Below, piece by piece: positions 21,333-47,399 of a stretch of 47,399 nt of DNA (positions within the stretch are counted from its first letter, which is position 1; every line of letters starts with the position of its first letter). The DNA lies in IMG/VR virus record IMGVR_UViG_3300045141_000011, positions 1 to 47,399 of that record. The stretch is one strand, 5' to 3'. The translations under genes were made by a program, and so were the position numbers. The notes beneath the pieces were generated by a model. That model worked only from the letters and a program-made list of their open reading frames with translations, was not told the DNA's origin and searched no databases. The stretch comes from a virus.

Positions 21333-22094
21333 TTATTTCGCAGTCTGCGTTTCAAGCATGGACGCTGGCGCGTACTGCCGCCACACTTCCATGTACTTCT
21401 CAAGATAGTGCTGGGCCTTCTGCAGATCTTGTAATCCTCCTTTCTTCTTCCAGCGCCAGACATACTTGGTTATCTGTCCCTGGAAGTAATCCATTTTCTG
21501 TTCGCTGACCCAGTCCCAATGCTGCATTCCGCTGGCCGCATCGGTTTCGTAGTAGTGCCTGCCACCTACCTGACGACTGTTAGCGCCTGCCGTGGCCGCC
21601 TGTTTACCTGTATTTAAGCCTGGAACAGGATGATCTGGGATCGCTCTGGCGCTGTTTTCTGCGCCTGCAGGCTGGGGTTCAACGCTGGCCTCAGATTGCA
21701 CCAGATTGGGTGCAACTGTTTCAGCCTTTCGCAGGTCGCCCAAGTATGCCATTGCTGCGACCCACGTTTCCTTGTGCAGCGGTATAAAATCAAACGGGCT
21801 GCGCCGTTGACCCACCAGAACCACGTGTTTATTCTTGGCCAAGGCGTAACCGAGTTCTGTGTGCAGGCCTCCAGTGCTACTGGGTACATCATTCAGCACT
21901 ACTACCACATTGGAACGGTTGATGTCTTGTATATCCTTCTCACCGAATCCAATGTAATCTTCGCTGCCGCGTTGCACTCCAGGTTCTTCGTCCATCCACC
22001 GGCTGGTGCATTCTATGCCCATGCCTTCCAGCTGACTGCGACAGTGTCGCGCTTCTTTCAAACCGTTCATGCTTGCTGCTATGTATACCCTCAT
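21333..22094 (-). CDS. Nucleoside deoxyribosyltransferase-like domain fused to DUF3310 (T7 gp1.7-like)
   Basis: The 253-residue protein joins two enzymes of nucleotide metabolism. Residues 1-115 look like nucleoside 2-deoxyribosyltransferases: RVYIAASMNG at 2-11, then SNVVVVLND at 61-69 and GGLHTELGYALA at 75-86 with probable catalytic Glu80. Residues about 175-237 match DUF3310 (GGRHYY, then QMDYFQGQITKYVWRWK-type helix, KAQHYLEKYME), the family of T7 gp1.7, a dNMP kinase. A 60-residue linker rich in Pro/Ala joins them. It is the last gene of the modification operon and overlaps the TS-like gene by ATGA, which suggests work on a modified pyrimidine nucleotide. Confidence 0.85.
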   Translation of the reverse strand: MRVYIAASMNGLKEARHCRSQLEGMGIECTSRWMDEEPGVQRGSEDYIGFGEKDIQDINRSNVVVVLNDVPSSTGGLHTELGYALAKNKHVVLVGQRRSPFDFIPLHKETWVAAMAYLGDLRKAETVAPNLVQSEASVEPQPAGAENSARAIPDHPVPGLNTGKQAATAGANSRQVGGRHYYETDAASGMQHWDWVSEQKMDYFQGQITKYVWRWKKKGGLQDLQKAQHYLEKYMEVWRQYAPASMLETQTAK

Positions 22095-23152
22095 TGACCC
22101 TCCTTTGTTTTGTTTTCACGTCTGGTAATCCAGTTTCCACAGGCCATGCGCCAGTCGCTGGCCTGTATCTGCATGGCTTCAGCTAGGCCGCTGCTGCCAG
22201 TCTTGTTCTTGCGCGCTATCCAGGCGCGATACATAGGCGCAGCCACGTTCGCGAAGAACGGGTCAAGGCTATCGGTGTGATGGCGCAATTCTGGACCTTG
22301 CAGAAACGTACTAAGGTCTTCCATCCACGACTCAACATCTGTATTCACAAGTGGAAATGGCTGAATGTGACTATCAGTCTGCGCGTAGTAATCACACTTC
22401 GCCACTTCTTCAGCAAGAGTGGCGTATCCAGTGCCGTCCTGTTTCACCACGTCTGTGTAGATGTGAAAGTTATTGCTGAACTGCCTGTACACACCCACAG
22501 GCACGCCGACGGCAGCCGCCACGAACTCCTGCAGAATGCTGAAGTGCACAGCATTCGCGCCGTAACATCCCCACCATATGTCATTGCTTCGGCACAGCAC
22601 TGTCATGTTGATCTTACCGAACCGACAGTCAAAGTAGATCTGCGTGTTGCACGGAACGTCCTTTCCACCCATCATGGCCATGTGCAGGTCAGTGGTTCTG
22701 ATGGCTGGGCCACTGCGCTTGAGTTCAACCACGCTGGCATCCCACATGGTTAGAACGCAGCGCCGTGATTCAGGGTTCTTCCTTAGTTCGTTGATGATAA
22801 CAGTCAGCTGATCGTAGCCAAACCACTTGCGCCAGCGGTATCCGTAGGCACCGTGAACCGTTACGCCATCGTCGCTGTAGCTGGCGAAGTTCTTGTTGAA
22901 CCGCATTGGAAACTCAAGGTCATTGCGGCCAGCCAGCATCCACAGGCTTTCCATCAAGTGGAAGAATGGATTGGCGTCTCGCAATGGGCTGAACAGAACG
23001 CGTTCACACGGATGTGAATACACTGTTACGACAGGTTCCGGCATGGCCAGCACTGGGCCGTTCCTGCTGGTTTCTTTTTCGCCCATCGCATCTAGAAGTT
23101 CTAATGCGTCTGGCAGGGCCGCGTTGACATTTCGTGCTTCAATGATGTGCAT
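22091..23152 (-). CDS. Thymidylate synthase-like enzyme, probable dUMP hydroxymethylase
   Basis: A 353-residue member of the thymidylate synthase superfamily. The catalytic Cys lies in KDVPCNTQIYF (Cys168) and the nucleotide-binding segment is CRSNDIWWGCYGAN (187-200), where Asn200 aligns with the Asn that selects dUMP over dCMP. HGAYGYRWR at 100-108 and FSNNFHIYTD near 225-234 complete the fold. Phage enzymes of this branch often make 5-hydroxymethyl-dUMP instead of dTMP. The neighbours (base-modifying enzymes) favour that reaction here, but the sequence alone cannot exclude plain thymidylate synthesis. GGAGATAAC precedes ATG. Confidence 0.88.
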   Translation of the reverse strand: MHIIEARNVNAALPDALELLDAMGEKETSRNGPVLAMPEPVVTVYSHPCERVLFSPLRDANPFFHLMESLWMLAGRNDLEFPMRFNKNFASYSDDGVTVHGAYGYRWRKWFGYDQLTVIINELRKNPESRRCVLTMWDASVVELKRSGPAIRTTDLHMAMMGGKDVPCNTQIYFDCRFGKINMTVLCRSNDIWWGCYGANAVHFSILQEFVAAAVGVPVGVYRQFSNNFHIYTDVVKQDGTGYATLAEEVAKCDYYAQTDSHIQPFPLVNTDVESWMEDLSTFLQGPELRHHTDSLDPFFANVAAPMYRAWIARKNKTGSSGLAEAMQIQASDWRMACGNWITRRENKTKEGQ

Positions 23153-23169
23153 GTTATCTCCTAGTTTAA

Positions 23170-24030
23170 TTAAATTCCAGGATAGGTGCTGCGCGGACGC
23201 CCTTCACCCAGCCGTGTTCGTTCGTACTTGTCAAATTCGCACAGGCAGTTCTGAAGGTCTTGAGCGTGCAGATCTGGCATTCCCTTCTTTACTATCAGCA
23301 GTCGTATTTCTTTGTGCAGCATGTTCAGGTGAGCCCACCAGCGCGCCTCGTTCCATGGTGTATTGGGTGCGCTGCCAAACACGCGGTTCAGCCCACGTCG
23401 GCTTCCCGGGCCGCTGGCGGCCCACGTGTGCCAGTCAACAGCGTTAACAAGTGGCTTCACGTATTTTAAGTCAGCGATTACCTGCGCTGCCATGAAACTG
23501 CCTAGACCGTCGTAATTCATAAGAACCTTATGCACTAAGCCCAGCGTTGGAGGCGGCACAGTACCAAGAGTTTCGTTGTGAATTACGGCTGCAATATTCT
23601 CTCTAGCCTTCCACAGTGGATCAAGCACGTATTCAACAAGGTATGGAATCTTTTCCACGGCCTTGCCATTCGTGCTTACGATGTAGGCACCACTGAAGAT
23701 GCGATAATTAGTGGCCTGTGCCACCTTGGTCAGTTCAACGAAACGCTTGGCGCTCCAAGGCACAGGAAACTTCACCAGTGACAATGTCGGCGGCCAATTC
23801 AACAGGCGCGCCACCACCATTGCGAACCACAGGTGGCGATCCGTCTTGTGTGGTGTGCGCCAGTGCTTCGCTATCCACTGCGTCACCGTGTCCAGTTCGC
23901 GGTACACATTGCAGAAACGGTACTGCTGCAGGATAGGGTCTTTCGTCCAAGGCTTGGGCTTACCAGCCTTGCGCGCCTCATAGATCTTGTGACGCTCTTC
24001 AATCCAGTAGAACAGTTCTTTGGTTCGCAT
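23170..24030 (-). CDS. Thymine hypermodification protein (aGPT-pyrophosphorylase / 5-hmdU kinase helical-domain group)
   Basis: The 286-residue, all-helical protein carries the group signature: PWTKDPILQQYRFCNVYREL at 27-46, then HLWFAMVVARLLNWPPTL at 66-83, SGAYIVST at 113-120, GLGSFMAAQVIADLK at 175-189 (helix-hairpin-helix-like), and DWHTWAASGPGSRRGL at 199-214. In known phages such proteins act on 5-hydroxymethyluracil in DNA, either as the helical half of a 5-hmdU kinase or as the transferase replacing pyrophosphate by an amino acid or polyamine. No P-loop kinase motif is present here, so the transferase-like role is more likely. Start set at 24030 (ATGA overlap with the radical SAM gene). 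Confidence 0.85.
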   Translation of the reverse strand: MRTKELFYWIEERHKIYEARKAGKPKPWTKDPILQQYRFCNVYRELDTVTQWIAKHWRTPHKTDRHLWFAMVVARLLNWPPTLSLVKFPVPWSAKRFVELTKVAQATNYRIFSGAYIVSTNGKAVEKIPYLVEYVLDPLWKARENIAAVIHNETLGTVPPPTLGLVHKVLMNYDGLGSFMAAQVIADLKYVKPLVNAVDWHTWAASGPGSRRGLNRVFGSAPNTPWNEARWWAHLNMLHKEIRLLIVKKGMPDLHAQDLQNCLCEFDKYERTRLGEGRPRSTYPGI

Positions 24031-25013
24031 CACGGCTGCACCTCCCACGGTCGCAGTACGATTTGCACCAAGGTTCCATGCTTGGTGGCCTGTTTGATGG
24101 CCAGCCTGTCAGCGTCGTCAGGCTTGGGCAGTGTCACGTGTCCTTTGTGGTCTGGCAGCAGGCCCACGCGATAGCTCAGCGCGTCGCAACCTGCGCAGGC
24201 GCCGAAGTCGCGCTGGCCGTGGTACAGCTTGCGCCGTGCCGCCGTGAAGGCCGCGTTGTTCCATAGCTTGTCTATGGGTTCGCGCGTTATATCGCCTATG
24301 CGATAACGGCCACGCCAGTCGTTGCAGCAAATGGCGATGGTGCCATCATGACGAAAGCTAAGTTCACGGAACGGTTTCGCACATCGCTTTCCTTCACCTA
24401 GATTATTGAGTGGTGCGCCAGCTCCACAATGATTGTTCAAGGTGGCGTGGCCTCCTTTCGCGGCCTGTTCAATGTCCTGTATGTAGATGACCTGCATACT
24501 GCCCACAGGCCAGCGATGATGAGGGCTGTATTCCAAGCCATCACCGGGATAATCGTGTATGTTGATGTTCAACGGCAGCTGCTTCGTATGCTTCAATTCA
24601 CCGCGAATACGCGGCACGAAGTTCACGCCATTGTAATCGTCCAAAGCCAGCACGTTCAGGCCATTCATGAACAATGCGCGCACCTTGGCTATGGTATCCT
24701 TTACCAGCCCTGCGCCGTTGCTGGTAATCATAAGCTGATTGCGTGGCAGCGCCTGCCGAAATACTTTTATGATTTCGGTAAGCGACTGGTTGACAGTGGG
24801 CTCGCCGTGCATAGCAAACTCAATGCGACTGTTCCACTTGACACGCGCAATTTCGTCGGCGATGCGTGCGGCCAGCGGCACAGTCATGAATTTGTAGTTC
24901 CCAGGTTTTTCGCGTATGCCCTGCAGGCCGCAGAAGCTGCACTGCAAAGGACAGCCCTCTGTCGGCTCAACCTGTATGGCGAACGGTGGATCTTGCGTGT
25001 ACTGCTTCTTCAT
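24030..25013 (-). CDS. Radical SAM enzyme with SPASM-type C-terminus
   Basis: The 327-residue protein has the iron-sulphur motif CPLQCSFCG (Cys21, Cys25, Cys28) for S-adenosylmethionine cleavage, a (beta/alpha) core with SRIEFAMHGEPTVNQSL near 67-83, and a C-terminal auxiliary cluster region with NNHCGAGAP, KRCAKPF, IAICCNDWRG and FGACAGCDAL. In hypermodified-thymine phages a radical SAM enzyme rearranges the amino acid attached to the base, which would suit its place between two glycosyltransferases and the transferase-like gene. The ATG at 25013 overlaps the upstream stop (ATGA); the longer frame to 25088 lies inside the upstream gene. Confidence 0.88.
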   Translation of the reverse strand: MKKQYTQDPPFAIQVEPTEGCPLQCSFCGLQGIREKPGNYKFMTVPLAARIADEIARVKWNSRIEFAMHGEPTVNQSLTEIIKVFRQALPRNQLMITSNGAGLVKDTIAKVRALFMNGLNVLALDDYNGVNFVPRIRGELKHTKQLPLNINIHDYPGDGLEYSPHHRWPVGSMQVIYIQDIEQAAKGGHATLNNHCGAGAPLNNLGEGKRCAKPFRELSFRHDGTIAICCNDWRGRYRIGDITREPIDKLWNNAAFTAARRKLYHGQRDFGACAGCDALSYRVGLLPDHKGHVTLPKPDDADRLAIKQATKHGTLVQIVLRPWEVQP

Positions 25014-25810
25014 ATGCTCCCCACGGTGCTGGTTTCGTACGCTTGCTTCCACTGCACGATAACGTCTGTGCGCGTGCCGCCTCCCCATGCCGTCTTGGTT
25101 GTTTTCTGTACCAGCTTAACGAACGGCGCATGAAGTTTGGCCAGCCCTCGCGCGCCTTCCGCCTGCCGTTCCAGCGTGCGGTACAGGCTGCAGCCACCAG
25201 CGGCCTGACTGCCGCCTTGGTCTTGAACGTAGCTGCACAAGGCCGCGTTCCGGTAACCAAGGCGCAGCAGCTGCAGAGCCACGTCAAAGTCTTCCATGAT
25301 AATGATGCGGTCAAAGCGAACCTGCTTCTTGCGCAGCACGTTCACATCGTAGGCCAAGGCACGAAGAAGGCGCGTGCACTCTTTGATAGGATCTGTGATG
25401 CGATTGCCGCCTTCACGCGCCAGTATACCGACATGAGCGTACTGCTTCAGCATCTTGTCCACGGTCATAATACAGGTTTCCAAGCCAACGTCCGTGATTG
25501 GCAGGAACTTTGTCTTATCGTCCTGTCGCCGTACGAAGAAGCGCAGGTCGTCGTCAAGCATCAGCACGTGTGGGCCGTACTTCTTCACATCGTGTTGATC
25601 AACGATGAACTGGCGCACCTTGCCTATGCTGTTCGCGTTCTTAGGACAGGCCAGCACTTGCGCGCACTGGTATCCATTGATAATCTGGTTGTCCCCTTCA
25701 GCGTGGTCAACTACCAGCACCACGTCCTTCAAAAGACGTTTGCAGTTGCGCAGGCTGTGCAACGTAACCTGATCGTTGACTCGCCCACGAGTTGGAATGT
25801 ATATCCTCAT
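25010..25810 (-). CDS. GT-A glycosyltransferase, TET-associated (TAGT)-like
   Basis: A 266-residue nucleotide-sugar transferase. MRIYIPTRGR at 1-10 is the nucleotide-binding opening, SIGKVRQFIVDQ at 61-72 the second strand-helix, and HVLMLDDDLRFF at 81-92 the metal-binding acidic motif (Asp86-Asp88). IIIMEDFDVALQLLRLG near 165-181 is the acceptor-side motif with an ED pair. This matches the TET/JBP-associated glycosyltransferase group, which puts sugars on hydroxymethylated pyrimidines in phage DNA. No TET/JBP oxygenase is seen here; the hydroxymethyl group would come from the TS-like enzyme. The start overlaps the upstream stop as TGATG. Confidence 0.85.
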   Translation of the reverse strand: MRIYIPTRGRVNDQVTLHSLRNCKRLLKDVVLVVDHAEGDNQIINGYQCAQVLACPKNANSIGKVRQFIVDQHDVKKYGPHVLMLDDDLRFFVRRQDDKTKFLPITDVGLETCIMTVDKMLKQYAHVGILAREGGNRITDPIKECTRLLRALAYDVNVLRKKQVRFDRIIIMEDFDVALQLLRLGYRNAALCSYVQDQGGSQAAGGCSLYRTLERQAEGARGLAKLHAPFVKLVQKTTKTAWGGGTRTDVIVQWKQAYETSTVGSI

Positions 25811-26634
25811 CACTTATCTCCCTTCAAATATCCATGTTCAATGCGCCAGCGGTTTACGCTGGCATCACTGGTTCGTAGAAATCGCAACGCGCTGTTCTTA
25901 CCACGCGCAAGGCCCACCAAGCCCGGAAAGGTACTACAGCACGCCTGCAGCTGCTGCAGCAGCCCAGCGGCCTCGCGTGCAGCACGGCTGCCTAATCCGC
26001 CCTGCTCATACCAGCGTGCACGGTAGAAAAGCCAGTTGTCCACCAGCACGCGGCCATAGAAGGCCACGGCCTGCGCACTGGCGAAGCTGTCGTGGCACAG
26101 ACGATGCTTGAAGCGTATGCCTGCTTCTGCACGCATGACGAACACCTTGCTTTTCACAAAGCGGCGAAAGCCGAAACGTTTCCCGCGGAAGTATGGGTTT
26201 TCCATGGTGGCGACACCACCATAGCAGGCGCCGAAGCTGTCGCAGCGCACGGCCAGCGCCTGCAGCTCTTTCACGTAATCCTTGACGCTGCAGTTCTTGT
26301 TGAAAAAGGGCCGCCAGTTCTGACCATCAGCAGTGTCCACCAGCCCATCAACGCTGTGCTTACGGCGCAGGCCGCCATCCACTGCCGCGAAGCCCTGTAT
26401 GTTGTCGTCCATGCCACAGTACCAGCCACGGCCCACGGCGGCAGTAATGGCGTTGCGCTTGGCCACCAGATCGCCTGTATCCGTCACCATTACGCGCCTG
26501 TGGCCCAGCCTACGCGCTGCGTCGGCTTGCTGGCCGTTATCCAGTACCAAGGTGTACGGCACGCCTGCAGCCTGCAGCAGCTTGGGTGTGTGAAGTCGTT
26601 CTTCTTGCGCGCGACTGACAATGTAAATATTCAT
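25810..26634 (-). CDS. Second GT-A glycosyltransferase (GREB1/TAGT-like)
   Basis: The 274-residue protein is a diverged relative of its neighbour. MNIYIVSRAQ at 1-10 replaces the IYIPTRGR opening, LVAKRNAITAAVGRGWYCGMDDN at 56-78 (in parts) holds the RN and DDN motifs of the donor and metal site, and ENPYFRGKRFGFRRFVKSKVFV near 145-166 lies on the acceptor side. A basic, Arg-rich C-terminal half may bind DNA. It begins the six-gene operon, 94 bp after the basic protein gene and its hairpin. A pair of transferases suggests either a disaccharide or two different sugars on the modified base. Confidence 0.8.
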   Translation of the reverse strand: MNIYIVSRAQEERLHTPKLLQAAGVPYTLVLDNGQQADAARRLGHRRVMVTDTGDLVAKRNAITAAVGRGWYCGMDDNIQGFAAVDGGLRRKHSVDGLVDTADGQNWRPFFNKNCSVKDYVKELQALAVRCDSFGACYGGVATMENPYFRGKRFGFRRFVKSKVFVMRAEAGIRFKHRLCHDSFASAQAVAFYGRVLVDNWLFYRARWYEQGGLGSRAAREAAGLLQQLQACCSTFPGLVGLARGKNSALRFLRTSDASVNRWRIEHGYLKGDK

Positions 26635-30837: not shown

Positions 30838-31066
30838 ATCCTAGACCTCGTAATTTATTTATGATATGCTGCTGCAGCTTCCTTGGCTGCTTTCCTGGCT
30901 TCTTGAACTCAATCAGTGCTGGCCTGCCGCCATCAAGCCAGAAGCAACGATCTGGCCAGCCACGATTTCCCCACAGGTTCAATTTCGTTACTTCTATTCG
31001 GTTTCGCTTGGCCCACAGCACCACCGGATTCTCTACGTTCCTTTCTTGTGGTTTATTTCTGGGCAT
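30581..31066 (-). CDS. VRR-NUC domain nuclease
   Basis: Start at the ATG at 31066, eight bases after AGGAG; the ATG at 31072 is too near. The 161-residue frame has the VRR-NUC pattern in its first 95 residues: NRIEVTKLNLWGNRGWPDR, then RPALIEFKKPGKQPRKLQQH with the catalytic E-x-K, and ALDV-like GYDVASFESPEKAIDWL. Such PD-(D/E)XK nucleases cut branched or flap DNA. The remaining 60 residues, rich in Arg and Glu, run over the helicase start in another frame and may not be part of the functional domain. Confidence 0.8.
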   Translation of the reverse strand: MPRNKPQERNVENPVVLWAKRNRIEVTKLNLWGNRGWPDRCFWLDGGRPALIEFKKPGKQPRKLQQHIINKLRGLGYDVASFESPEKAIDWLKWCIEQRRRAKERAVGTAAVYEEVRQTLADARRRRAVLRARNEEDKHHLGRVKNTQARRHSKTRAYHRS

Positions 31067-31344
31067 ATACATTTCTCCTGCTGACACCTGAAGCACGTTT
31101 CATTTCCATACTTCAGCATGTACGCATTGTTTAGGTCAATGCCGTTGGCGCTGGCCACGGTAAACAGCCAAGCCTGACAATCGCCCAGCTCTTCAGCTAG
31201 ATTGGCAGGGTCTCCATTGCGCAGCGCCTTTGCGACTTCACCTACTTCTTCAACCAGTCGTTGAAAGCACTTGTCAGGGCCGCGTCGCGCGATGGTGTTG
31301 TGGTACTTGTTGAAGTTCGTGTCTTGCGCAGTTTTCATGTCCAT
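31033..31344 (-). CDS. MazG-like nucleotide pyrophosphohydrolase with Cys-rich tail
   Basis: The 103-residue protein has the helical MazG fold with metal-binding acidic motifs EEVGEVAKA (32-40) and EELGDCQAWL (51-60). The C-terminal CFRCQQEKCIC (84-94) adds a likely zinc site, a feature not found in the simplest members. MazG-type enzymes hydrolyse (d)NTPs to monophosphates and here may lower dUTP or unmodified dTTP. The gene ends by overlapping the VRR-NUC start region by 34 bases. GGAG lies nine bases before ATG. Confidence 0.82.
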   Translation of the reverse strand: MDMKTAQDTNFNKYHNTIARRGPDKCFQRLVEEVGEVAKALRNGDPANLAEELGDCQAWLFTVASANGIDLNNAYMLKYGNETCFRCQQEKCICPEINHKKGT

Positions 31345-39789: not shown

Positions 39790-40265
39790 TTTATCTTCTC
39801 CTTGATAGATGCACCATCGTTGAGCAGCGAACCCCATAGCTGCATTGGATCTTCAGGCGCTGGGTTGCTGCGTTCTCCCGGATGCGGAACGTCCACAGCC
39901 GGATCAAACTGCATTGTGAACAGCGTAGGCACGTCGTCAACGGCACGCTTTTCAATCAACTGTCGTTGCGGCTGCATTTCTAGTACAGGCAGACAGCCAT
40001 CACAATAGAATGACTTGAACAGGTCTGGGCCTACGTGCCACTTCCGCACGTGGCTTGCCCATTCTACGCCACATCTGCCGCATATTCTTACGCGAGCAAG
40101 GCAGAAGCCACGATTTCCCCACCACACCATAGCCTGCTCAACAGTTTCCCTGCGATCAAGGCTGACGGGTGCCCACATCTGTTCTTTCGGCAGCCACGCA
40201 TACAGATCACTCGGCTTCAAGTGCTGGTGCGGCATACTGCTAAGAACGCGTCTGCTGGTTCTCAC
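39786..40265 (-). CDS. Zinc-finger hypothetical protein (159 aa)
   Basis: GTG at 40265 overlaps the upstream stop. The middle has CGRCGVEWASHVRKW and FYCDGC (residues about 62-91), a four-Cys zinc site. A later stretch is acidic and Pro-rich (DVPHPGERSNPAPEDP). The fold is not recognised. It is co-translated with the dCTP-deaminase-like gene and the Nudix gene, so a nucleotide- or host-takeover role is conceivable but unproved. Confidence 0.7.
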   Translation of the reverse strand: MRTSRRVLSSMPHQHLKPSDLYAWLPKEQMWAPVSLDRRETVEQAMVWWGNRGFCLARVRICGRCGVEWASHVRKWHVGPDLFKSFYCDGCLPVLEMQPQRQLIEKRAVDDVPTLFTMQFDPAVDVPHPGERSNPAPEDPMQLWGSLLNDGASIKEKIK

Positions 40266-40807
40266 AGTTTCACCCCACTCACAGTCTTGTCACCGTTGTA
40301 CCTGCCACGTCCTTCGTAGCTGGCTTCGCGCGGCACCGTGCGTCCAGTGAAGAAAACCACCTGCCCGATGGGGTCGCCAGGACGGATGCGTATCTTGTGG
40401 TTCATCAGTAGATTGCTGATTTCAAGCGTCAGCACGCTGCCGTTCCATCCCGGGTCGCACCATCCAGCCAGCGAATGGTTGAGTCCCATGCGCGCCATGC
40501 TGCTCTTCAGCTTGTATTCCGCGGCCATATGCAGCGGTATGTTGAACACCTGTTCTGTGTGCGCCAGAACAAATTGTCCAGGAGCCAGCACGTAACCTTC
40601 TTCAGTCATGGTTACTTTACGACTGGGCATGGCGTCGCGCGCACGCAGATCAAGCACGTTGCTGTGACTGGCGCTGCCAAGGTTCTCCACCAGTATGTCT
40701 TTTCCAAGCGTAACGTCAATACTGGCGGCATTGACAAGTTCAAGCGGACAGTTCGTAATGACCCTGCCGCACAACTGCTTCAGTTCTGTATATGTTAGTA
40801 TCCCCAC
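40262..40807 (-). CDS. dCTP deaminase (DCD/DUT family)
   Basis: GTG start five bases after GGAGG. The 181-residue protein shows the family core: KSSMARMGL at 101-109 (Ser and Arg of the active site), GWCDPGWNGSVLTLEISN at 115-132 with Asp118 and catalytic Glu129, and IRIRPGDPIGQVVFF near 137-151. The enzyme turns dCTP into dUTP, or in bifunctional forms into dUMP, the substrate for the TS-like enzyme at 22091-23152. It provides the precursor for hydroxymethyl-dU. Directly downstream of the J-domain gene. Confidence 0.88.
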   Translation of the reverse strand: MGILTYTELKQLCGRVITNCPLELVNAASIDVTLGKDILVENLGSASHSNVLDLRARDAMPSRKVTMTEEGYVLAPGQFVLAHTEQVFNIPLHMAAEYKLKSSMARMGLNHSLAGWCDPGWNGSVLTLEISNLLMNHKIRIRPGDPIGQVVFFTGRTVPREASYEGRGRYNGDKTVSGVKL

Positions 40808-47018: not shown

Positions 47019-47399
47019 ATGCATCTGTTAGGTGGTATCGCAATTCTGCTGTTCACTCTGGGTGTGCTGGCCATCGGCACCGTGTACACTCCAGTCGCAA
47101 CTGGTGGAAAGCTTGCTTCCACAGTTCTCACAACGGCCCTTGTGGCAGGCGCATCGCCTTCTTCATTCGCCAATGATGGTCAGACTTTTCTGTTTGTCCG
47201 CGTGGGCGCAACGCCTACGACCATAGCGTTTCAATGTCCGCCGTGCGCGCATGGGCGAGCATTCAGTAATCCACTGGTGCTGGCCATCAACCAAGACTAT
47301 ATGCTTGGGCCGTTTCCGCAGGTGGAGTTCAATGATGGTAATGGTGCCTGCAACTTCACGTTGACTTCTGTGACGGCCATCAGCATCGCAGCGGTGAGG
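47019..47399 (+). CDS. N-terminal part of junction-spanning small structural-type protein
   Basis: ATG at 47019 follows ACGAGG. The first 20 residues are hydrophobic (LLGGIAILLFTLGVLAIGTV), suggesting a membrane anchor or a signal-like segment, which is odd for a capsid protein. The following beta-rich region (ANDGQTFLFVRVGATPTT) matches small phage beta-sandwich proteins. The frame stays open to the last base and continues at bases 2-142. Total length 131 residues. A decoration-type role is possible, but the hydrophobic start argues for membrane association in the cell. Confidence 0.85.
   Translation, partial: MHLLGGIAILLFTLGVLAIGTVYTPVATGGKLASTVLTTALVAGASPSSFANDGQTFLFVRVGATPTTIAFQCPPCAHGRAFSNPLVLAINQDYMLGPFPQVEFNDGNGACNFTLTSVTAISIAAVR
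47273..47399. repeat. Terminal direct repeat, right copy
   Basis: Exact copy of bases 1-127. See the left copy; together they show that the contig closes into a circle. Confidence 0.95.

Follow-up and report, generated by a model that had tools for sequence, protein, structure and literature searches.

A widespread phage gene cassette predicted to glycosylate 5-hydroxymethyluracil in DNA, with a radical SAM enzyme as putative sugar-remodelling partner

Gene content of the cassette and of the phage genome

Within the 47,399 nucleotides of the IMG/VR virus record IMGVR_UViG_3300045141_000011 (the window, i.e., the whole stretch of DNA analyzed), a leftward set of six genes at positions 21333-26634 (-) was confirmed by an open reading frame (ORF) check. 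The set encodes, among others, a thymidylate synthase (TS)-like enzyme, an HMUDK_hel protein, a radical S-adenosylmethionine (SAM) enzyme and two glycosyltransferases. It is interpreted here as the glycosylation branch of 5-hydroxymethyluracil (5-hmU) DNA hypermodification, in which the radical SAM enzyme would remodel the sugar, and a probability of about 0.68 is assigned to this reading. The genes of the cassette are as follows:

21333-22094, minus strand: PF05014 nucleoside deoxyribosyltransferase / nucleotide hydrolase-like domain fused to DUF3310 (Pfam)
22091-23152, minus strand: predicted TS-like (d)UMP hydroxymethylase, 353 aa (Pfam, PHROG, identity to M6 gp58, Cys168/Asn200)
23170-24030, minus strand: solo HMUDK_hel (PF18723), 286 aa, predicted platform binding 5-hydroxymethyl-2'-deoxyuridine (5-hmdU) (Pfam, AlphaFold2 model, Foldseek)
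24030-25013, minus strand: radical SAM / twitch (SPASM) enzyme, 327 aa (Pfam, profile and fold match to BtrN)
25010-25813, minus strand: TAGT-family GT-A glycosyltransferase, GTG start (PF20691, DDD metal motif)
25810-26634, minus strand: second, divergent TAGT-like GT-A glycosyltransferase (phrog_842, profile cross-match, MDDN motif)

The joints between these genes comprise three 4-nt overlaps (ATGA, ATGA and GTGA), one 1-nt overlap (TGATG) and one 17-nt gap, in agreement with the six leftward genes and mostly short overlaps described in the first-pass annotation of this DNA. The six genes form a real, translationally coupled operon. The most likely start of the radical SAM gene is 25013, within the ATGA overlap, rather than 25088, and the HMUDK_hel gene most plausibly starts at 24030, at TGATG. 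The same gene set was found again in dozens of independent IMG/VR contigs and, for this reason, the arrangement is not a product of chance.

The first-pass annotation had also named a deoxyribosyltransferase-DUF3310 fusion, a TS-like enzyme and a radical SAM-SPASM enzyme, and had proposed a hidden Markov model (HMM) search and a synteny search as checks. All three assignments were recovered with Nuc_deoxyrib_tr (1.2e-7) and DUF3310 (2.6e-7) for the first, PF00303 Thymidylat_synt (1.9e-18) and phrog_5131 (1.2e-121) for the second, and PF04055 Radical_SAM (1.3e-8) and PF13186 SPASM (5.4e-11) for the third protein. Accordingly, the HMM search matched the TS, HMUDK_hel, radical SAM and TAGT families in the cassette, and the synteny search retrieved the gene set across the independent contigs mentioned above. 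The enzyme set had been regarded as unusual and outside any described pathway; it is not unique to the window phage and represents a widespread cassette in IMG/VR.

Regarding the two predicted GT-A transferases, the product of 25010-25813 belongs to the TAGT family (PF20691, 3.8e-20, 73.1 bits against a gathering score of 27.5), and its DDD metal motif was found in 88/88 aligned homologues. The product of 25810-26634 resembles GT-A enzymes but matched no Pfam family, PF20691 included. However, it matched phrog_842 (5.9e-8), carries an MDDN motif, and a profile of its relatives also retrieves TAGT; judged by its sequence, it is a divergent TAGT relative. The Pfam matches of the cassette proteins included neither PF11440 nor PF09198, and a PDB search with the TAGT protein returned no match.

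Since the opening 127 bases of the window are repeated exactly at its other end, it most likely represents the closed genome of a phage, with 47,272 unique bases, and gene absences therefore carry meaning. A length of 127 bp is also a common assembler k-mer size. Within this closed genome, neither the PF18748 5-hmdU DNA kinase nor the PF18724 amino acid:DNA transferase (ADDT) was matched at E<=10. A near-identity search among phages returned no match. Features outside the cassette are:

1-127, no strand: direct terminal repeat, left copy (identical to 47273-47399)
31033-31344, minus strand: MazG pyrophosphohydrolase (PF03819, 4e-10)
40262-40807, minus strand: dCTP deaminase-like protein (PF22769, 2.1e-31)
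47273-47399, no strand: direct terminal repeat, right copy (identical to 1-127)

The dCTP deaminase-like protein possibly supplies dUTP/dUMP, and MazG possibly edits the dNTP pool. Together with the PF05014-DUF3310 fusion, whose PF05014 domain gave a weak PDB match to CMP/hmCMP hydrolase around the motif HTELGYA, these proteins may tune the nucleotide pool.

HMUDK_hel and its alternative partners

The protein encoded at 23170-24030 had been described as an aGPT/5-hmdU-kinase-helical-type protein. Its membership in HMUDK_hel stood (PF18723, 2.9e-49, 168 bits against a cut-off of 25, with agreement of the full-length profile and the fold), whereas it is not an amino acid:DNA transferase. The AlphaFold2 model (pLDDT 96) retrieved the phiRSL1 and phiW-14 members by Foldseek (E 1e-16 and 9e-15, respectively) and also resembles a phage SP10 protein (637 aa) that bears the name 5-hmdU DNA kinase and presumably contains a fused kinase. 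Among solved structures no convincing match was obtained: the PDB Foldseek search gave nothing with E<0.3, the best hit being QNG1/DUF2419 (prob 0.77). Against a viral library, Endonuclease III was retrieved as a weak match (prob 0.63). Homology to helix-hairpin-helix DNA glycosylases, suggested by eye from the motif LGSFMAAQVIADLK...VDWHTW, was rejected and kept as a lead only, since the profiles did not match that of E. coli Nth (prob 0.5%).

In order to evaluate which genes accompany these families, IMG/VR was scanned with radical SAM, HMUDK_hel, TAGT and kinase seeds (best 80 matches each), and neighbours were scored within 10 kb. Among the HMUDK_hel-seeded loci (n=80), 29 carried the kinase, 31 any of three glycosyltransferase families and 0 both (P=6e-9). 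TAGT-seeded loci (n=80) contained HMUDK_hel in 77 and a TS-like gene in 79 cases, with kinase and ADDT both at 0, and kinase-seeded loci (n=80) contained HMUDK_hel in 66, ADDT in 50 and a glycosyltransferase in 0 cases. After pooling and dereplication of HMUDK_hel at 70% identity, 63 loci had the kinase only, 82 a glycosyltransferase only, 14 neither and 0 both (P=6e-31). Moreover, whole-record searches with curated Pfam models detected TAGT in 0/32 kinase-bearing records and the PF18748 kinase in 0/49 TAGT-bearing records.

When the kinase/TAGT label was mapped onto a tree of 105 HMUDK_hel proteins, it required 12 changes, of which well-supported branches force at least 6, compared with a mean of 21.5 for shuffled labels. 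Sister pairs with opposite partners were observed (L160/L142, L110/L099 and L130+L138/L148). HMUDK_hel in IMG/VR thus pairs either with the kinase (often together with ADDT) or with glycosyltransferases, two alternatives that were repeatedly exchanged. This defines a widespread, unstudied phage branch possessing a sugar transferase exactly where M6-like phages have a base kinase. 5-hmdU hypermodification accordingly splits into two mutually exclusive and repeatedly exchanged branches, phosphorylating or glycosylating, on the same hydroxymethylase and HMUDK_hel.

Because of this strict either/or association, a platform role is predicted for HMUDK_hel; in the simplest reading, the protein would bind 5-hmdU and perhaps expose it to either enzyme. 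Alternatively, HMUDK_hel itself could be a catalytic transferase acting on 5-hmdU, with TAGT and the radical SAM enzyme working on the group it has installed. This possibility draws on 13 invariant residues (R13, F39, R44, D47, R75, F179, D187, D199, G207, G209, C264, E265 and K268), among them R, D, E, C and K, and on a more distant Foldseek likeness to proteins with an amino acid:DNA transferase domain (prob 1.00, TM 0.58). However, the same 13 residues are identical in the kinase-linked and TAGT-linked groups, so any chemistry must suit both branches, and the profile-profile match to ADDT, although colinear, is weak (3% probability); the relation was retained as fold similarity only, and a catalytic HMUDK_hel is considered unlikely. 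With the split into two branches, the role of HMUDK_hel, a family that owes its name to the kinase, becomes amenable to direct testing.

The hydroxymethylase, HMUDK_hel and TAGT families are already known. In the literature searched, the combination of HMUDK_hel, TAGT and radical SAM enzyme and the exclusion between kinase and glycosyltransferase were undescribed; an earlier account of the glycosyltransferase branch is possible and priority is uncertain. For the Brevibacterium phage LuckyBarnes, a hydroxymethylase and two glycosyltransferases were proposed to modify the DNA, albeit via a dCMP route (PMC6588365).

Predicted modified base, sugar transfer and radical chemistry

The TS-like protein (22091-23152) shares 48% identity with M6 gp58. 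The catalytic Cys168 was found in 135 of the homologues aligned there, and Asn200 in 136/136 of those covering its position, M6-type enzymes included. In the alignment Asn200 corresponds to the Asn of E. coli ThyA, whereas the CMP 5-hydroxymethylase of known structure has Asp. An Asn at this position of TS marks a uridylate enzyme. Since the uridylate-type Asn is retained throughout, the enzyme is likely dUMP-specific and 5-hmdU the likely product base, in line with the earlier proposal that hmdU is made in the dNTP pool. Hydroxymethylation rather than true TS activity is argued from operon membership, as the two cannot be separated by sequence alone.

A cytosine route resembling that of T-even phages, in which the TS-like enzyme would yield 5-hmdCMP and the TAGT enzymes would glycosylate 5-hydroxymethylcytosine (5-hmC), was also considered. 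CMP 5-hydroxymethylase is indeed what the TS-like protein matches best in the PDB, the characterized T6 TAGT works on glucosyl-hmC (PMC13216743), and the authors of the LuckyBarnes annotation chose the label dCMP hydroxymethylase (PMC6588365). Nevertheless, this route appears improbable given the Asn200 pattern, which extends to the M6-type enzymes of thymidine-hypermodifying phages, the assignment of HMUDK_hel to a family of the 5-hmdU pathway, and the dCTP deaminase-like gene of the window phage.

The nearest solved relative of the radical SAM enzyme (24030-25013) is BtrN (profile 1e-32; Foldseek 9.1e-14, TMt 0.81). The cysteines of the CxxxCxxC motif (C20, C24 and C27) are invariant among 46 sequences, and C210, C228, C229, C272 and C275 are each at least 90% conserved in the same set; the predicted model carries no clusters. 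SpeY and DesII, whose substrates are sugars, appeared lower in the Foldseek list. BtrN is a twitch enzyme oxidizing an aminocyclitol alcohol, with an auxiliary cluster held by four Cys ligands (PMC9012708), and BlsE, which acts on the sugar part of a conjugate with a base (PMC3715490), provides a precedent for such radical SAM chemistry. Among dereplicated radical SAM loci (n=59), a glycosyltransferase was located within 3 kb in 53, HMUDK_hel was present in 51, a TS-like gene in 52, the kinase in 2 and ADDT in 0. Furthermore, L041:3324-5063 is a single ORF of 579 aa encoding TAGT followed by a BtrN-like radical SAM/SPASM domain. Taken together, the likeness to BtrN, the proximity to glycosyltransferases and the TAGT-radical SAM fusion suggest that the enzyme acts on the sugar that is transferred or on the sugar donor, while the reaction itself is a guess.

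The first-pass annotation had also considered an amino-acid-derived group on the base. In an M6/ViI-type pathway, 5-hmdU would be phosphorylated by the kinase, an amino acid attached and then rearranged by the radical SAM enzyme, with the sugars as extras. The window phage and M6 do share the TS-like enzyme and HMUDK_hel, and M6 also has a radical SAM gene. However, the closed genome lacks detectable PF18748 kinase and PF18724 ADDT, ADDT occurred in 0/59 radical SAM loci and 0/80 TAGT loci, and the BtrN-like radical SAM enzyme gave no tblastn match to the M6 region holding the M6 radical SAM gene. The amino-acid type is therefore regarded as quite improbable, and that part of the earlier proposal found no support, whereas a sugar on hmdU is supported by the TAGT glycosyltransferases together with the dUMP-type hydroxymethylase. 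Action of the glycosyltransferases and the radical SAM enzyme on non-DNA targets such as a host surface glycan or a virion protein, merely beside a hydroxymethylase, is highly improbable: both families act on many substrates in general, but TAGT is a DNA-base glycosyltransferase family, TAGT-seeded loci contain TS in 79/80 and HMUDK_hel in 77/80 cases, a DNA kinase is mutually excluded and the genes overlap by 4 bases within the operon.

For the favoured glycosylation branch, the following pathway is proposed. The TS-like enzyme would convert dUMP to 5-hmdUMP, which would be polymerized and so replace thymine in part or completely. HMUDK_hel would then recognize 5-hmdU in DNA on behalf of whichever first-step enzyme is present, and TAGT would place a sugar on the 5-hydroxymethyl oxygen, as in base J, with the second glycosyltransferase extending it or adding another sugar. 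Finally, and least certain, the BtrN-like enzyme may remodel the sugar by keto-sugar oxidation, epimerization or deoxygenation, either on DNA or on the sugar nucleotide. Judging from known hypermodified phages, the modification would serve protection from host nucleases. The scheme predicts radical chemistry on DNA-linked sugars.

Several points weigh against this interpretation. The chemistry of the pathway, namely dUMP specificity, DNA as acceptor, sugar identity, the adaptor role of HMUDK_hel, the radical SAM reaction and the purpose, is predicted from the genes, and a BtrN-like fold fixes neither reaction nor substrate. The scans, limited to the best 80 matches each, over-represent relatives near the query. 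T6 TAGT attaches a second sugar to glucosyl-hmC (PMC13216743), so a role for TAGT as the initial transferase on 5-hmdU is not established. The record MW202897, annotated as complete, has TS and TAGT without PF18723, which means that HMUDK_hel is not strictly required. The kinase replaced the glycosyltransferase at 2/59 radical SAM loci, and the L003-type records searched contain TAGT and the radical SAM gene with no detectable TS or HMUDK_hel, although these may be fragments.

More tentatively, and with somewhat less than even odds, the cassettes may define a large class of phage DNA in which glycosyl-5-hmdU takes the place of thymine, the sugar being remodelled by radical SAM enzymes (keto-, epi- or deoxy-forms, possibly sulfated in some relatives) and HMUDK_hel serving as an interchangeable 5-hmdU adaptor for base kinase or glycosyltransferase. 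Solitary TAGT homologues were reported in 288/753 phages, with neither alpha- nor beta-glucosyltransferase and with a role described as unknown (2026 paper, PMC13216743). The glycosylation branch offers a substrate hypothesis for many such genes.

Related systems and further gene arrangements

Thymidine hypermodification in Yuavirus M6 involves 5-hmdU, the 5-HMUDK kinase, ADDT and a radical SAM enzyme, with 5-NedU as product. The window cassette shares with it the TS-like enzyme, HMUDK_hel (about 36-37% identical) and a post-replicative scheme based on 5-hmdU, but has glycosyltransferases and no kinase, ADDT or PALP enzyme. With T6 TAGT, a beta-glucosyl-HMC-alpha-glucosyltransferase, it has in common PF20691, the GT-A DDD motif and a predicted sugar on a 5-hydroxymethyl pyrimidine; T6, in contrast, targets glucosyl-5-hmC with an alpha-glucosyltransferase as partner, whereas here TAGT is accompanied by a uridylate-type hydroxymethylase, HMUDK_hel and the radical SAM enzyme. 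Kinetoplastid base J is beta-glucosyl-5-hmU made by JBP and J-GT. The predicted product type, a sugar on 5-hmU, is the same, but 5-hmU would arise pre-replicatively by the TS-like enzyme rather than by JBP oxidation, and a radical SAM enzyme and a second glycosyltransferase are added.

The radical SAM enzyme resembles the twitch dehydrogenases BtrN (butirosin) and SpeY in fold, CxxxCxxC motif and further conserved cysteines; unlike BtrN, to which its aligned identity is about 16-19%, it adjoins DNA glycosyltransferases. The same kinds of enzymes occur in blasticidin and mildiomycin biosynthesis: the TS-like CMP hydroxymethylase MilA, the PF05014 hydrolase MilB, the glycosyltransferase MilC, and the radical SAM enzymes BlsE/MilG acting on a base-linked sugar. 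CMP 5-hydroxymethylase and, weakly, CMP/hmCMP hydrolase were the best PDB matches of the corresponding window proteins. However, those pathways use free nucleotides and cytosine instead of DNA and uracil, and the likeness of the radical SAM enzyme and glycosyltransferases is by enzyme kind only.

A cultured counterpart is LuckyBarnes (MF668275; L171 7436-11451), with an operon TS-TAGT-TAGT-HMUDK_hel and no kinase. In contrast to the window, no radical SAM gene was found in this region, the TS-like protein is longer (517 aa), and the authors' label is dCMP hydroxymethylase. As a cultured phage, it makes the glycosylation part testable now.

A search of cultured phages for the radical SAM enzyme returned no match, and cellular genomes gave three matches only, with no pathway informative on the substrate. 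One of them, L168:7911-12846, is an apparent prophage in the Actinomadura rayongensis chromosome carrying the radical SAM gene with ParB-like and GT-B-like genes; neither HMUDK_hel nor a PF00303 TS was detected in that genome. At some radical SAM loci devoid of TAGT, a GT-B-like protein was present instead, a weak assignment (Glyco_transf_4 at 0.004 for one member). At L133:9956-15903 and L082:1602-5134, a divergent radical SAM member lies beside a 5-hmdU kinase, not a glycosyltransferase, and adjoins a conserved protein (SMVAS.. / SMQAS..) that also occurs near L135 and L167.

At L069:8450-12707, a TAGT gene stands on either side of a tandem radical SAM pair, which suggests that two sugars are added in succession and that each addition has a radical step of its own. 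Furthermore, an operon at L003:8416-11589 (also in L004, L006, L008, L023 and L085) consists of TAGT, an unknown protein, the radical SAM enzyme and an adenosine 5'-phosphosulfate (APS) kinase (PF01583, 1.6e-57). A PDB search with the L3x protein returned no match. The unknown protein of this operon features RRSGGHA and RDxYNxxxSR motifs resembling those of 3'-phosphoadenosine 5'-phosphosulfate (PAPS) sulfotransferases, which hints at a sulfated DNA sugar, and its relatives occur in L016 and L069 together with HMUDK_hel and TS.

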